Source: Euhalothece natronophila Z-M001 (GTDB lineage: Bacteria; Cyanobacteriota; Cyanobacteriia; Cyanobacteriales; Rubidibacteraceae). Taken from it: 64,000 nucleotides of DNA. The notes under the pieces are model-generated. The model had not been told where the DNA came from, did no database searches, and saw nothing but the letters and a program-made list of their open reading frames with translations. Shown here piece after piece: positions 28,490 through 41,644 of this stretch. A program made the position numbers and the translations under genes. The first letter of the stretch is position 1. Every line of letters begins with the position of its first letter. Where the stretch lies: the NCBI RefSeq assembly GCF_007904085.1, contig NZ_CP042326.1:2480001-2544000 (forward strand). Direction: 5' to 3'.

Positions 28490-29923
28490 ATGCAGTTGCT
28501 CCCCTTTAAGAAAATTAAGGCTTGGTTTCAGACTTGGAATCCCAAATCGCTGCGGTTTCGGTTAACTCTAGCCATTACCACCGTATCGGTAGTTGGTATG
28601 GGGGGGCTAGCCATTTGGTTGGGCGTGACGATGCAACGGATTCTCATTTCAGCACATAAAGACAATGTTCTTTATCTTGATGAGCGTCTCCCTGAAGATG
28701 TGGCAATTTATGAGGAGATGTTTTCCCAGCCAGAAGCAATTCAGAAGGCAATTGATAATCTCAGTCGCGATCGCGTGGTGATGTGGGTAGAAGATGAGGA
28801 AGAAGACATTATCGCCAGAACTGGGGGTGTCGATACCCCACAACCTTTACCTGTTTCCCCAGAAACCACTAATTTTCCCTTTCCAGGAGTAACACTTTCG
28901 CAAGTAGATGGACGGTATTGGATTCTCTGTGCTAGCCCTTTGACTGTTAATGGCGAGAGAATTGGCAACCTTTACATTGTTCAAGATATCCATGCTGAAC
29001 AAGTGATGTTCTTGCACGTAATGAGAAATTTAGCTGTTGCGACAGTGGTTGCTATTACGGGAATTAGCATAGTCGGGGGAATTTACGTTGCGCGATCGCT
29101 GCTTCCCCTGCGTCGGATTTGTCAATTGACTGAAAGTATCTCGGCAGATCATTTAGGAGAAACCCGAATTGCTCTGAATCACGCCCCCACAGAAGTCCAA
29201 CAGTTAGCAGAACGGTTTGATGAAATGCTCACTCGTTTATATGCGGCTTGGGAACAACAGCGTCAATTTGTGAGCAATGTTTCCCATGAATTACGAACTC
29301 CCTTAACGATTGTGTCTGGCTATTTACAAAGTGTGCAAAGACGAGGTAAAAACCTCAGTGAACCCCAACAAGAAGCCCTTGCTATTGCCAGTAATGAAGC
29401 GGATCGCACCATTCAGTTATTAGAAGATTTATTAACCTTAGCGCGAGTGGATAATGGGCAAATGCAGTTTCAATTAGAAACCATATCCTTTCCTTCATTT
29501 ATAGAACAGATCATTGAATTATTCCAACAATGCCACGATCGCGCGATTCATTATCATCTCCCGACAGAAGAAATAAAAATCTGTGCTGATAGTAATCGTC
29601 TCAAACAAGTTATTCTTAATCTTCTCGATAATGCCATAAAATATTCCGAGCCAGAACAACCCGTTACAATGACGCTAGAGCGGAAAAAGCAATTAGGCGT
29701 CTTATCAGTGCGCGATCGCGGAATTGGCATTCCCTTAGCCCAACAAACTCGCATTTTTGAACGTTTTTATCGCGTTGACGACGCAAGAAGTTGCTCCACA
29801 GGAGGCACTGGTTTAGGATTATCAATTGTTAAAACCCTTGTAGAAGGAATGGGGGGAAATATTAAAGTCAGTTCCCGCCCTAGGGAAGGTACAATTTTTA
29901 CCCTTACCTTTGCCACTATGTAG
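28490..29923 (+). CDS. membrane sensor histidine kinase
   Basis: A 477-residue class I histidine kinase. Two membrane helices (about 20-42 and 170-192) bound a periplasmic sensor of about 125 residues. A HAMP linker follows (SLLPLRRICQLTESISADHL), then the phosphoacceptor region FVSNVSHELRTPLTIVSGYL, the N-box VILNLLDNAIKYSE, and G-boxes VRDRGIGIP and GGTGLGLSIVKTLVEGMGG. The ATG at 28490 is preferred over the TTG four codons upstream. No response regulator gene is adjacent, so it is an orphan. The signal is unknown. Confidence 0.88.
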   Translation: MQLLPFKKIKAWFQTWNPKSLRFRLTLAITTVSVVGMGGLAIWLGVTMQRILISAHKDNVLYLDERLPEDVAIYEEMFSQPEAIQKAIDNLSRDRVVMWVEDEEEDIIARTGGVDTPQPLPVSPETTNFPFPGVTLSQVDGRYWILCASPLTVNGERIGNLYIVQDIHAEQVMFLHVMRNLAVATVVAITGISIVGGIYVARSLLPLRRICQLTESISADHLGETRIALNHAPTEVQQLAERFDEMLTRLYAAWEQQRQFVSNVSHELRTPLTIVSGYLQSVQRRGKNLSEPQQEALAIASNEADRTIQLLEDLLTLARVDNGQMQFQLETISFPSFIEQIIELFQQCHDRAIHYHLPTEEIKICADSNRLKQVILNLLDNAIKYSEPEQPVTMTLERKKQLGVLSVRDRGIGIPLAQQTRIFERFYRVDDARSCSTGGTGLGLSIVKTLVEGMGGNIKVSSRPREGTIFTLTFATM

Positions 29924-29933
29924 TGGAGACTTT

Positions 29934-30124
29934 TTGAGCCTCTTCTGCCTAAAGGCGAGAAGATTCCCTTGTAGACTCTTATCTAGATTTAACTCTTAGA
30001 GTTAAATCCCCGACAGACCGCCGTTACAGGGCTGTTTGGTCACGGTCGCCCCAACCGCAGACACTTACATCTTAACACAGAACGCCATAAATGGCGGGGT
30101 TTTGAACCCGTGATTTTACGATAA
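29934..30124 (-). mobile_element. 191-bp miniature IS200/IS605-type element, copy A
   Basis: Identical to the inverted copy at 39842-40032 except for one base (30050). Read on the minus strand it begins TTAT and ends TCAA, matching the kind of left and right cleavage tetranucleotides used by Y1 transposases such as IS608. It carries subterminal hairpins CGCCAT/ATGGCG near the left end and TCTTCT-GCC/GGC-AGAAGA just before TCAA, plus a 10-bp-arm palindrome (TTTAACTCT region). Inside is the end of a TnpB reading frame, VTKQPCNGGLSGI and a stop. No transposase is present, so it could move only in trans. Confidence 0.8.
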
Positions 30125-30191
30125 TTTCCTACTTTAACTATTATTGCTGGGGAATATGAACATACTATTATAGTCGTTCCAATTCAGTTCC

Positions 30192-30240
30192 GTAGTGCAG
30201 CCATCTTGGCTGCTACTAGGGAGCAAGATGCTCCCACTAC
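30192..30240. repeat. double-hairpin intergenic repeat
   Basis: The outer arms GTAGTG (30192-30197) and CACTAC (30235-30240) enclose two hairpins, CAGCC-ATCTT-GGCTG and GGGAGC-AAGAT-GCTCCC, which share the boundary base at each end. The two loops ATCTT and AAGAT are exact complements and could kiss. This layout is typical of dispersed cyanobacterial palindromic repeats. Longer frames running through it into the next gene are not coding. Other sequence in 30125-30394 shows nothing recognisable. Confidence 0.7.
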
Positions 30241-30394
30241 TTTTAAGTTGCTGTTTTTTATTTGGAATGACTATAATTATCTGCTTCAGGTATTAAATCA
30301 TGTTAAGCATCCTGAAAAAATCTTGACAGAAGTTGAAAAAAGATACTTGTTTGCGTTAGGGGTTAATCATAGAGATTATCTTGGGAGGAGCCTC

Positions 30395-38341: not shown

Positions 38342-39796
38342 CTACTTTTTTAGCTTTTGCCACAATTTAATCACCCATTTTTCGAGCCAGGCTAAACCGC
38401 GATCAATCCATTCTAAAATTCGGGCTAAAATATGCTTTTCATAACCAATAGGGATTGCTTCGGTTTGTAAATAATCTGTACTTTCAGATGTTGACTTTCC
38501 CTGATTTGTTTTACCATTCTTACTAGCAAGAGTCGTGCTTAACTGTTGCGCGATCGCTGCAGAAAATTCTTCATCAGTAATCACAGGAGATACTGGCTTA
38601 TTAGTTTCTTCTTCTCCAAATAAATCCGCTTTGGTTAACCAGTCTTCTTGAAAAGAGGGCTCTCCTTCGGCATAAGATAACCCCTGATTATCTTTTCTTC
38701 TCAAATGTTCAAAAGCAGCTTCAATGAGTCTAGCGAGACTATAGGGATTATACTTTAGCGAACTTTGAGTGTCAGTTGCTCCCTTACCACTGAGACGTTT
38801 TTGGGGTTTTACGCCATAAAAATAATCCACCGCTGAGCGAATAAGAGACAAGATAGCATTATTATCCTGCTTACCTAAATTGGCTTTCCAGTGCCTTAAT
38901 TGGTTAATAACAGGGCTTAATTTTGTCTTTTCCCAACGAGCAAGAGTACGATCTAAATTATTCAGTTGACTCGAAGGTGGCGTTTGAGAAATCGTATCAG
39001 CACCAGCAGGAATTTCTAATTGTGATTCTTGGAATAAATTTAACCGTTTCGCAAAGGGGCTAGTTTGTATCCACACCAGAAACTGCGATAACCACTGAAT
39101 GGGATTTAAACGTTTTTTCGTTCGAGAATTAGCAAGTCGCCACCACCAAGGTTGTTGCAATTCCTCATAACATTCAATAATAACTTTAATTCGCTTTTTC
39201 AATTGCTGATGTTGTTGATCAGATAAGATATCAATGGTTTGATTATTCGCAGTGGCTAAAACCAGTTTCCCCGTTATCAAATCAGTGGCGATTCCCTGAA
39301 TTAACGTATTGGAGGTTTCAGTTTTTCCTCCTTTGCGAAACGAACTAGCAGGTAAAAATGGAACTTGCCTCAACCAGTTTGCTTTTTGAGGGCGACTTAA
39401 GGGCTTAATTTCTACTTTGATTTTTCTAGGCTTCTTTTTACGCCAGAATTTGAGCTTTTCCCAGATTGAAGTTGAGGCTTCAGGGAGAGGAAGCAGTTGA
39501 TAGGGAGTATGTTTTAGCCAGGGTTGGAGACTATTTAAGATAACACTTGTGGGTTGGCTTCCTACAGAGGAGGTATGTTGCTCTTTTGGTGGTAATAATA
39601 ACTCAACGGTTTTATTTTGCAGTTGTTTTCCTAGTTGAGTTGAGGTTTGCACTAACAGGTAAAGGGGATAAGCAATGATTTGTATTCCCCACACCGTCGC
39701 AGTTTTGAGTTGTCTGAAACTGACCTTAGCGCGATCGCCGAAACGTAATGATTGGCGATTAATAAAGCTCAAAATCTGACTTTTGTAAGGCGACAT
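38342..39796 (-). CDS. hypothetical protein, probably cyanobacteria-specific
   Basis: A 484-residue protein that I do not recognise. The N-terminus has a moderately hydrophobic stretch (WGIQIIAYPLYLLVQTS, about 35-51). Basic and Trp-rich segments follow (WEKLKFWRKKKPRKIKVEIK, about 112-131), then a conserved-looking block (GKLVLATANNQTIDILSDQQ), a long helical middle and an amphipathic C-terminal helix (LAWLEKWVIKLWQKLKK). This composition suggests peripheral membrane association. It converges on ubiX with 25 bases between stops. Codon use looks like that of its neighbours, and it carries HIP1 sites. Confidence 0.6.
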   Translation of the reverse strand: MSPYKSQILSFINRQSLRFGDRAKVSFRQLKTATVWGIQIIAYPLYLLVQTSTQLGKQLQNKTVELLLPPKEQHTSSVGSQPTSVILNSLQPWLKHTPYQLLPLPEASTSIWEKLKFWRKKKPRKIKVEIKPLSRPQKANWLRQVPFLPASSFRKGGKTETSNTLIQGIATDLITGKLVLATANNQTIDILSDQQHQQLKKRIKVIIECYEELQQPWWWRLANSRTKKRLNPIQWLSQFLVWIQTSPFAKRLNLFQESQLEIPAGADTISQTPPSSQLNNLDRTLARWEKTKLSPVINQLRHWKANLGKQDNNAILSLIRSAVDYFYGVKPQKRLSGKGATDTQSSLKYNPYSLARLIEAAFEHLRRKDNQGLSYAEGEPSFQEDWLTKADLFGEEETNKPVSPVITDEEFSAAIAQQLSTTLASKNGKTNQGKSTSESTDYLQTEAIPIGYEKHILARILEWIDRGLAWLEKWVIKLWQKLKK

Positions 39797-39841
39797 TAAC
39801 TCCCTAACCCTAGAATAGACAACATCAGCATGATTACTATT

Positions 39842-40032
39842 TTATCGTAAAATCACGGGTTCAAAACCCCGCCATTTATGGCGTTCTGTGTTAAGATGTA
39901 AGTGTCTGCGGTTGGAGCGACCGTGACCAAACAGCCCTGTAACGGCGGTCTGTCGGGGATTTAACTCTAAGAGTTAAATCTAGATAAGAGTCTACAAGGG
40001 AATCTTCTCGCCTTTAGGCAGAAGAGGCTCAA
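39842..40032 (+). mobile_element. 191-bp miniature IS200/IS605-type element, copy B
   Basis: Same element as at 29934-30124 in the opposite orientation, with one difference (A39916). On the plus strand it runs from TTAT (39842-39845) to TCAA (40029-40032). Codons 39902-39964 encode the TnpB-like tail ending CNGGLSGI and TAA; the single difference is a synonymous third base of a glycine codon. The in-frame codon just before this tail is TAA, so no longer protein is made. The right-end hairpin and tail would correspond to the omega-RNA region of a complete TnpB element. Confidence 0.8.
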
Positions 40033-40117
40033 TTTCCCACTTTTCCTTGCGTTGATCTATCGGTGTAGTTAGGGAATCAGGATAGGGTGGACAAACTGCC
40101 CACTCCATCCACTGTAT

Positions 40118-41644
40118 TTACGCATTTACTGCTTCTTTGGCAGCATATATCACTTCGGCGCTGATATTTTCAATTCCTTGTTCTCGGGCATATTTTTCGG
40201 TATTCCGTTTTACTTTGCCACGAACAAACCCAGGAACTTTATTTAATTCTGCTAACCCGTCTTTTGTCCAATTTAAGTCAGATTCCGCAGAAACTGTTTT
40301 GGTAATCACTTCTTTGGTATCGTGTCCACCGAAGATTTCTAAGAGGTGATCTTCCATACCGAGAGTAAAGGAATTATACACTAAATCTACCACTTGGTTT
40401 GCTCCTTCATAGCCTAAGAAAGGACGATAGCCAACTGGGAAGTCTTGAATGTGAATTGGGGCAGCAATTACGCCACAGGGAATGTTAATGCGTTTACCCA
40501 CATGGCGTTCCATTTGCGTACCAAAAATAGCAGCTGGTTCTAATCGCGCGATCGCGTCACCAATTGCCCCATTATCATCACTGACAAGAACCTCATCACA
40601 ATAATCTTGGACTTGTTCTTTAAACCAATCCGCATCGTAGGTGCAGTAGGTTCCAGCTAAGACCACCCGAATTCCCATTTCTTTGGCTAAAATACGGGTC
40701 ATAGCAACTGCATGAGTATTATCCCCAAAAACAACCGCTTTTTTCCCTGTTAAGTTTTGGCAGTCAATGGAACGAGAGAACCAAGCCGCTTGCGAGACAA
40801 AGCGGGTTTGATTATCAATATAGCCTTCATAATCAACATTTCCCCCCTGATCATTAATCGCCTTCTGCATCGAACGGATACAACGGGCCGTTTCCACAAT
40901 TCCCATAGGGGTTACTTGTACCGTAGGAACATTATAATTATCCTCGATATATTTGGCTGCCATGGGGCCGACTTCCCGATATGGAACGAGGTTAAACCAC
41001 GCCCGAGGAAGCGTTTTCAGTTCATGGACACAAGCCCCTTGCGGAATAATTTGGTTAATTTCAATGCCCAAATCAGTCATTAACCGTTGTAGTTCTGTGA
41101 GATCATGTTGATTATGAAAGCCTAAAGTAGTGGGACCAATAATATTAACGGAGGGCTTTTCCGTTTTATCGGTGCGAATATCACCTTTTTTCTCAGCTTT
41201 CTCTAGATAGAATTTGACAACTTGAGCAAGGGTTTTATCTGCTGCTTGTAGTTCATTCACACGATAATGATTAACATCGGCAAGCATGACATCGCCACTG
41301 CTATCGAGTTGGGCGCGTTGAACAAAGTTTTCTAAGTCTTCTTGTAAAATACTGGAAGTGCAAGTGGGGGTAAGGATGGTTAAGTCGGGATGAATTTCGG
41401 CATCTTTACGGGTAATGTTATCCACGACTTTTTCTTGTGAGCCACGGGCAAGTACCTTACGATCTACCACACTGGTAGTTACAGGCGTAAAATTGCGATC
41501 GCGCTCTAACATCGACCGCATAACATTAAAGTAATCATCTCCGAGGGGGGCGTGCATAATAGCGTGAACGTTCTTAAACGAGCTAGCAATGCGGAGTGTG
41601 CCAATATGAGCGGGCCCCGCATACATCCAGTAAGCTAATTTCAT
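40118..41644 (-). CDS. chlB: light-independent protochlorophyllide reductase subunit B
   Basis: A 508-residue nitrogenase-like protein, one of the two catalytic subunits (with ChlN) that reduce protochlorophyllide to chlorophyllide in the dark using electrons from ChlL. The N-terminus [18 protein letters not shown] is characteristic, and the Asp that serves as an unusual ligand to the NB [4Fe-4S] cluster lies in [12 protein letters not shown] (Asp36/37). Cluster cysteines include those in [12 protein letters not shown] and [11 protein letters not shown]. The C-terminal extension ([20 protein letters not shown]) is the DPOR-specific part. chlL and chlN are not adjacent here. Confidence 0.96.

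Follow-up and report, generated by a model that had tools for sequence, protein, structure and literature searches.

An Element Defined by Its Ends

The window considered here is a stretch of 64,000 nucleotides from the 3.52 Mb genome of Euhalothece natronophila Z-M001 (G000; contig NZ_CP042326.1, positions 2,480,001 to 2,544,000). It carries two copies of a 187-bp element, copy 1 at 39846–40032 on the forward strand and copy 2 at 29934–30120 on the reverse strand, which differ by one substitution (71A>G). Upstream of copy 1's neighbor on one side, a 484-aa reading frame on the reverse strand (38342–39796) for which Pfam gave no match up to an E-value of 0.001, the distance between the copy and the start of the frame is about 50 bp; on the other side of the copy, 40118–41644 (reverse strand) matches nitrogenase-type oxidoreductase and the 57 kD subunit of protochlorophyllide reductase (chlB-like). 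Beside copy 2 lies a repeat with inverted ends (TATAGTC...TTCCAA, about 30167–30275), which was recognized by eye also at loci L010, L011, L018, and L074 and part of which (query 659–724) occurs, among the matches listed, at no fewer than seven places in G001, one of the five genomes of the same genus (G001–G005) used for comparison.

An initial annotation had drawn the element at 39902–40032, which is too short. A genome search with 39800–40100 as the query returned 24 matches, eight of which are full-length copies, the two window ones included. All eight measure 187 bp, are preceded by TTAT and end in TCAA; they are 98–100% alike, differ from the window copy at zero to three positions, and have differing flanks. 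Nine positions are substituted over the eight copies (9, 17, 56, 58, 59, 71, 124, 128, and 150), and the copies are too alike, or too young, for selection to be measured on them.

The TTAT at 39842–39845 (forward strand, as for all features of copy 1 below) is the target tetranucleotide and left cleavage site, and presumably the TAM of the empty site; by eye, it also precedes the left-end sequence shared by the tnpB elements L061, L062, L063, and L077. The left end (39846–39905) is predicted to fold into two hairpins, GGGTT/AACCC at 39857–39869 and CGCCAT/ATGGCG at 39870–39883, the second followed by a promoter-like box, and it resembles left ends that are found in the genus on elements with other bodies. 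The right end comprises GAAT (40000–40003), a hairpin with the arms CTTCTCGCC and GGCAGAAG (40004–40024), and the terminal TCAA (40029–40032). For comparison, IS608 is cleaved at TTAC and TCAA and has GAAT as its right guide sequence (PMC5934647). The element thus has the subterminal hairpins, the TCAA right cleavage site, and the GAAT ahead of the hairpin that characterize IS200/IS605 elements reduced to their ends. Insertion is 3′ of a fixed tetranucleotide, and there is no target duplication, the sequence of the left flanks not recurring in the right ones. A classical MITE was considered and rejected: by eye, CGTAAAATC... at one end and ...GAGGCTCAA at the other do not form inverted repeats. 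Since it has neither terminal inverted repeats nor a target duplication, the element is, on the features of its ends, an IS200/IS605-type ends-only element of the kind called PATEs, which lack a transposase, have subterminal palindromes, no terminal inverted repeats and no target duplication, and in some cases arose by deletion of the core (PMC3119063).

For one of the eight copies (L006), the flanks align across the junction in G004, where the element is missing, in a gapped alignment in which TTCAT replaces TTTAT; a match in G002 covers the same query range and one in G005 overruns the junction by 3 bases, both as unaligned matches. For the other seven copies, none of the matches listed in the five same-genus genomes reaches more than 5 bases past the junction. 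The Euhalothece genome has two Y1 tnpA loci, one intact and one broken, and the left flank of the element that carries the only intact Y1 TnpA found reads TTGAC by eye.

A Remnant of tnpB within the Element

The 3′ two-thirds of the element derive from the end of a tnpB gene. The frame at 39902–39964, which consists of 20 codons and a TAA, reads V-S-A-V-G-A-T-V-T-K-Q-P-C-N-G-G-L-S-G-I-stop and by eye matches ...LTAVGAPVVKQPSNGDLSGATTVA, the C-terminal sequence of intact TnpBs (396 aa) encoded in this genome. At the DNA level, query positions 107–206 match three 396-aa tnpB loci at 75–77% identity with E-values of 5.5e-13 to 2.8e-10, so that the likeness to tnpB is not due to chance. The retention of the tnpB end, proposed in the initial annotation, therefore stands as a matter of homology, but what is retained is a remnant and not a gene, because an in-frame TAA lies immediately 5′ of the GTG at 39902; the similarity begins only at about 39907, and the stop at the end of the frame comes early relative to TnpB's own.

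The same annotation had noted that the only difference between copies is synonymous. This holds for the two window copies, which read GGA and GGG at position 71 (39916); across the eight copies and their nine substitutions, three substituted positions fall in the frame (58, 59, and 71), 58T>G is non-synonymous, and the synonymous mismatch becomes uninformative. Coding selection on the tnpB tail was rejected on these substitutions. It is very improbable that the preserved segment owes its importance to a short peptide or to the tnpB coding tail, an idea to which the open frame of 20 codons and the one synonymous difference between the window copies lend some appeal and against which stand the TAA directly before the frame, its early stop and the non-synonymous change in one copy.

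Covariation of the RNA Scaffold

At 39907–40032 the element corresponds, by homology with the 3′ part of tnpB and the right end, to an omega-RNA scaffold, at the heart of which lies a covarying core (39944–39992) of three nested helices: H3 (GGC at 39944–39946 with GTC at 39990–39992), H2 (TGTC at 39951–39954 with GATA at 39983–39986), and stem 1 (39958–39967 with 39971–39980). Stem 1 reads GGCAAC/GTTGCC in the tnpB copies and GATTTAACTC/GAGTTAAATC in the element, while other homologues have GGC-tetraloop-GCC, GTTAGCC/GGCTGAT, or GATGGAG/CTTCGTC. Pairs were counted from anchored strings because MAFFT alignments misplace stem 1; alignment A3 went without L094, dropped for its unalignable stem 1, and without L009 and L082. 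Within one sequence, stem 1 forms 6.4 consecutive pairs on average (18 strings), as against 3.0 when arms from different groups are combined (244 combinations, 18 of which reach at least five). Two-sided changes that keep the pairing occur in H2 (TGTC/GATA, TGTC/GACA, TGAC/GTTA, and TGAC/GTCA) and in H3 (GGC/GTC, GAC/GTC, and GGC/GCC). Both helices are fully paired in 18 of 22 distinct rows, several of which are close relatives of one another. The four incompletely paired rows (L002b, L009, L062, and L069) all hold a palindromic insert, and in them the script took the H3 strand from the end of the insert; L081, L082, L083, and L094 lay outside the 22 rows, the anchored pattern being unmet, and L094 does not fit H2 and H3 by eye.

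The predicted RNA fold has a z-score of −3.1, with 2 of 200 shuffles equally stable. The change in stem 1 is also what puts a stop codon (39962–39964) into the old frame, inside a stem that is preserved, so that structure outlived coding. On the pattern of these substitutions, RNA structure, and not protein, is what is kept.

The partner of an ISDra2-type pseudoknot is inconsistently placed: it lies at −118 in the element, at −102 to −108 in four tnpB scaffolds, and at −76 in L070, and it was absent in L085, L091, and L143. Rfam gave no match in the window at the gathering score and none in L001 up to an E-value of 0.5, and the scaffold may simply be outside Rfam.

Several different tnpB elements and remnants hold, at one shared position of the omega-RNA, small palindromic inserts of the AAGGGGCTG...GCCCCGTC and ...CAGCCCCTCA types that were recognized by eye, namely L009 (about 1450–1505), L062, L069, L083, and L002 (near 1876); such inserts were also noted at the ends of L036 and L038 and in the left-end hairpins of L067, L069, and L071. 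In habit they resemble the SMR-A elements of Haloquadratum, which are said to target PATEs and IS605 elements (PMC3119063).

By analogy with ISDra2, the 16 nt past the right end would serve as guide, i.e., 40033–40048 for copy 1 and 29918–29933 on the reverse strand for copy 2. The genome target search took in these two of the eight copies' guides. That of copy 1 had five matches at up to three mismatches, one being its own site, against two for the reversed control, and one non-self match keeps TTAT with three guide mismatches; that of copy 2 matched its own site alone in the genome (control, 0). The suggestion that the element holds the omega-RNA region is thus supported by homology through the right end and by covarying helices, but the accompanying expectation of genomic sites that match the flanks next to TTAT found no support for both window guides, for which nothing beyond the own site exceeded the reversed-pattern control.

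A Promoter-Like Box and Resident TnpBs

Between the left-end hairpins and the scaffold lies an extended −10 box, TGTTAAGAT (39889–39897), from which a transcription start near 39903–39905 is predicted. Its hexamer, TAAGAT, has four of the six consensus bases; a sigma-70 scan that requires a −35 hexamer did not list it. The left-end pattern, with two mismatches allowed, occurs at 30 places in G001–G005 against three for the reversed control, and some of these places are fortuitous or decayed (L120, for instance, resembles a piece of a tRNA gene). With TTAY required before the anchor, 33 distinct left ends were retained, 22 of which have a right end recognized by the script. TGNTANNAT is found in 19 of these 22, at an offset of 41–45 in 18. 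These counts are not independent, since homology links the left ends and the 22 include six near-identical copies of the window element. The pattern is absent from the 71 bases read of L134, L138, and L142, of which L138 is internally deleted and L142 holds an insert, and from all 11 left ends without a recognized right end; one of the latter, L117, is by eye a complete element of type D (see below) in which the box reads TCCTATAAT. The same TGNTANNAT pattern precedes the first ATG by 35–38 bases in 11 of 49 tnpB loci of the Euhalothece genome, several of these being copies of one element. The element therefore seems to have kept a tnpB-type promoter, moved directly ahead of the guide RNA.

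The TNB domain of TnpB has 49 matches in the genome, 48 above the cut-off, several of them fragments. Four tnpB loci share their family with the element's tail: L061, L063, and L077 are intact and encode 396 aa, and L062 has an insert near its end. The L063 protein has the TnpB domains in Pfam and matches solved TnpB structures (8bf8, presumably ISDra2 TnpB; E-value 1.2e-31). In one printed alignment of L063, whose partner is an AI-designed nuclease, D, E, and D residues are aligned that we take to be those of the RuvC site. The nearest named relative of the partner TnpB comes from a Halothece MAG (79% identity). With stem 1 and the right-end hairpin excluded, the scaffold of the element is identical to those of the three intact loci at 73, 73, and 75 of 87 positions; it terminates in GGCTCAA where the tnpB scaffolds compared have GGTTCAA. 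The genome thus does contain intact TnpBs with a similar scaffold and, by eye, a TTAT target, the absence of a compatible one having been named in the initial annotation as grounds for abandoning the idea. The left end of the element differs from that of the partner tnpB elements, only one of which (L063) has TGNTANNAT before its gene.

Related Elements in the Genus

Left ends similar to that of the window element are joined in the genus to different bodies, designated A to E, plus one of 118 bp (L021). Body A (187 bp) is that of the window element. Body B (314–317 bp) occurs in G002, and its end resembles by eye the 3′ end of the tnpB genes L039, L043, and L048. Body C (254–255 bp) is found in the Euhalothece genome itself (L018) and in G002 (L097), body D (191–208 bp, except in two members that carry an insert and a deletion, respectively) in G003 and G005, and body E (200 bp) at L094, where it resembles the family of A by eye. 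For bodies C and D, a motif search recognized no tnpB partner, a weak negative result because the motif also missed the known tnpBs L195 and L196. In a sample of 388 genomes of the class, which included G001 and not G002–G005, the exact left end was present in one, the Euhalothece genome itself; plasmid and phage records held no match, records near this genome possibly being excluded.

Several members of this group are worth recording individually. Multi-copy sequences with a type D body (L171–L187; G002–G005, mostly G003) are guide-RNA-like, several with an extended −10 box, TGATATAAT, and with no tnpB partner recognized. L138 is a 101-bp element of this type whose internal deletion lies apparently between two TTCCGTG repeats. 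L014 and L015 are isolated left ends, each about 30 bp long (TTATCGTAAAATCACGGGTTCAAAACCCCGCC...), for which no body or right end was recognized. By eye, L008 and L172 sit just past the start of tnpB-like reading frames.

Comparison with Known Systems

The closest anatomical counterpart is a PATE-like element of Halanaerobium described in 2020, in which 28 nt of left end are joined to the final 58 nt of tnpB and the complete right end, and for which section 3.8 of the account names no RNA role (PMC7290912). The Euhalothece element likewise keeps the tnpB tail and the right end. It differs from PATEs in that a promoter-like box abuts the scaffold, that the helices of the scaffold covary, and that similar left ends occur on several bodies in one genus; a guide RNA is unmentioned in the parts covered of the two PATE accounts (PMC3119063; PMC7290912). 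In ISDra2, the RNA bound by TnpB is about 150 nt long, its last ~16 nt being derived from the flank (PMC8612924), and processed omega-RNAs range from 79 to 466 nt (PMC10278001), lengths compatible with the transcript predicted for the element, which would run from about 39903 to 40032 and on into the guide. The region described here resembles the ISDra2 omega-RNA/reRNA in its length of ~130–150 nt, its course from the 3′ end of tnpB through the right end, its presumed right-flank guide, and the likewise presumed identity of target motif and insertion motif (PMC8612924; PMC10097598). Unlike in ISDra2, there is no tnpB in cis, the RNA is predicted to have its own promoter instead of being processed from tnpB mRNA, and the pseudoknot is inconsistently placed.

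Guide-RNA loci without a nuclease in cis are reportedly known for IscB, for which Altae-Tran and colleagues are said to have described trans-acting omega-RNA loci in 2021, and the element is like these in the same respect. The RNA of IscB is located upstream of its gene. No iscB lies beside any copy of the element, and eight loci scanned, among them L001 and L018 and not the IscB loci themselves, gave no Rfam match to a HEARO-type RNA. Two iscB loci lie elsewhere in the genome (L078 and L079, at C1:1483199 and 1769367 of G000), with RRXRR genes of equal score and upstream sequences that are alike. An IscB origin of the left end was rejected, the upstream sequence of the two loci being unlike it by eye. 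Among the matches listed in a search of the open-access literature by titles and the beginnings of abstracts, a weak basis for a negative, no TnpB guide RNA from a non-autonomous element was seen, and a word search of PMC12558985 for MITE, truncated, solo, and similar terms returned nothing.

Discussion

From what can be read in the DNA itself, i.e., the anatomy of the element, its homology to tnpB, the covarying RNA structure, the shared TTAT, the recurring −10 box, and the intact TnpBs, we favor the explanation, with a probability of about one half, that an internally deleted IS200/IS605 transposon of the tnpB type may have turned into a compact stand-alone omega-RNA gene, usable in trans by a resident TnpB, and that it would thereby aid its own retention. 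For transcription, TnpB loading, cutting, and the choice of the mobilizing transposase, we infer the following course. The left end would carry both the transposition hairpins and the extended −10 promoter, which would read straight into a scaffold RNA of ~130 nt that extends through the right end and acquires a guide from the flank. Loading of this RNA would occur in trans, by one of the resident TnpBs of the 396-aa family (L061, L063, or L077). Excision by a Y1 transposase would leave a rejoined site in which TTAT and the guide sequence meet, i.e., a TnpB target, which would be cut, and the repair would draw on a sister copy in which the element is still present; the occupied site should be spared because TCAA, and not TTAT, precedes the guide. 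Retention by TnpB has been described (PMC8612924; PMC10278001), and for ISDra2 the authors proposed that TnpB cuts the empty donor site beside the target motif and that repair restores the transposon (PMC8612924).

The principal alternative, which we consider a serious contender if somewhat less probable, is that the element is a passive PATE, in which a deletion left the tnpB tail by chance, a transposase acting in trans recently spread the copies, and no RNA from the scaffold is made or put to use. The Halanaerobium element, which shares the anatomy (PMC7290912), keeps a passive deletion product in play, and with copies that are 98–100% alike, the retention of the scaffold may reflect mere recent ancestry; bodies C and D, for which no tnpB partner was recognized, point weakly in the same direction, and of the four partner tnpB elements a single one shows the same −10 pattern. 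Such passivity is harder to reconcile with an old protein frame whose stop falls within stem 1, when pairing in stem 1, H2, and H3 is kept up by sequences that differ from those of the tnpB copies, and with a −10 box found immediately ahead of the body in several types. The element RNA might also be made and act as a decoy, binding TnpB and so leaving less of the nuclease to autonomous elements, or as a regulator of tnpB expression. Eight full copies facing four tnpB elements of the family, with a similar scaffold, would suit this role, which we nevertheless hold to be improbable: a decoy needs neither an intact right end nor the TTAT context, yet both are kept in all eight copies, an argument of little weight because transposition needs both too.

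Extending the stand-alone omega-RNA gene from the single element to the genus is more speculative, and we offer it tentatively, as somewhat more likely to be wrong than right: the genus may carry modular “guide-only” transposons in which one kind of promoter-bearing left end is combined with several omega-RNA bodies, each using a resident TnpB in trans. Nuclease and guide would then be split into independently moving elements, a step toward a split multi-guide system.

With eight scaffolds that are nearly identical, each joined to a different natural guide, and with three intact TnpBs in the same genome, these ideas are directly testable. If working guide RNAs are made, non-autonomous IS200/IS605 elements would be parasites of TnpB nucleases and not passive debris. 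If so, one TnpB could serve many guides per cell, and RNA-guided multi-guide systems could evolve from such an arrangement.
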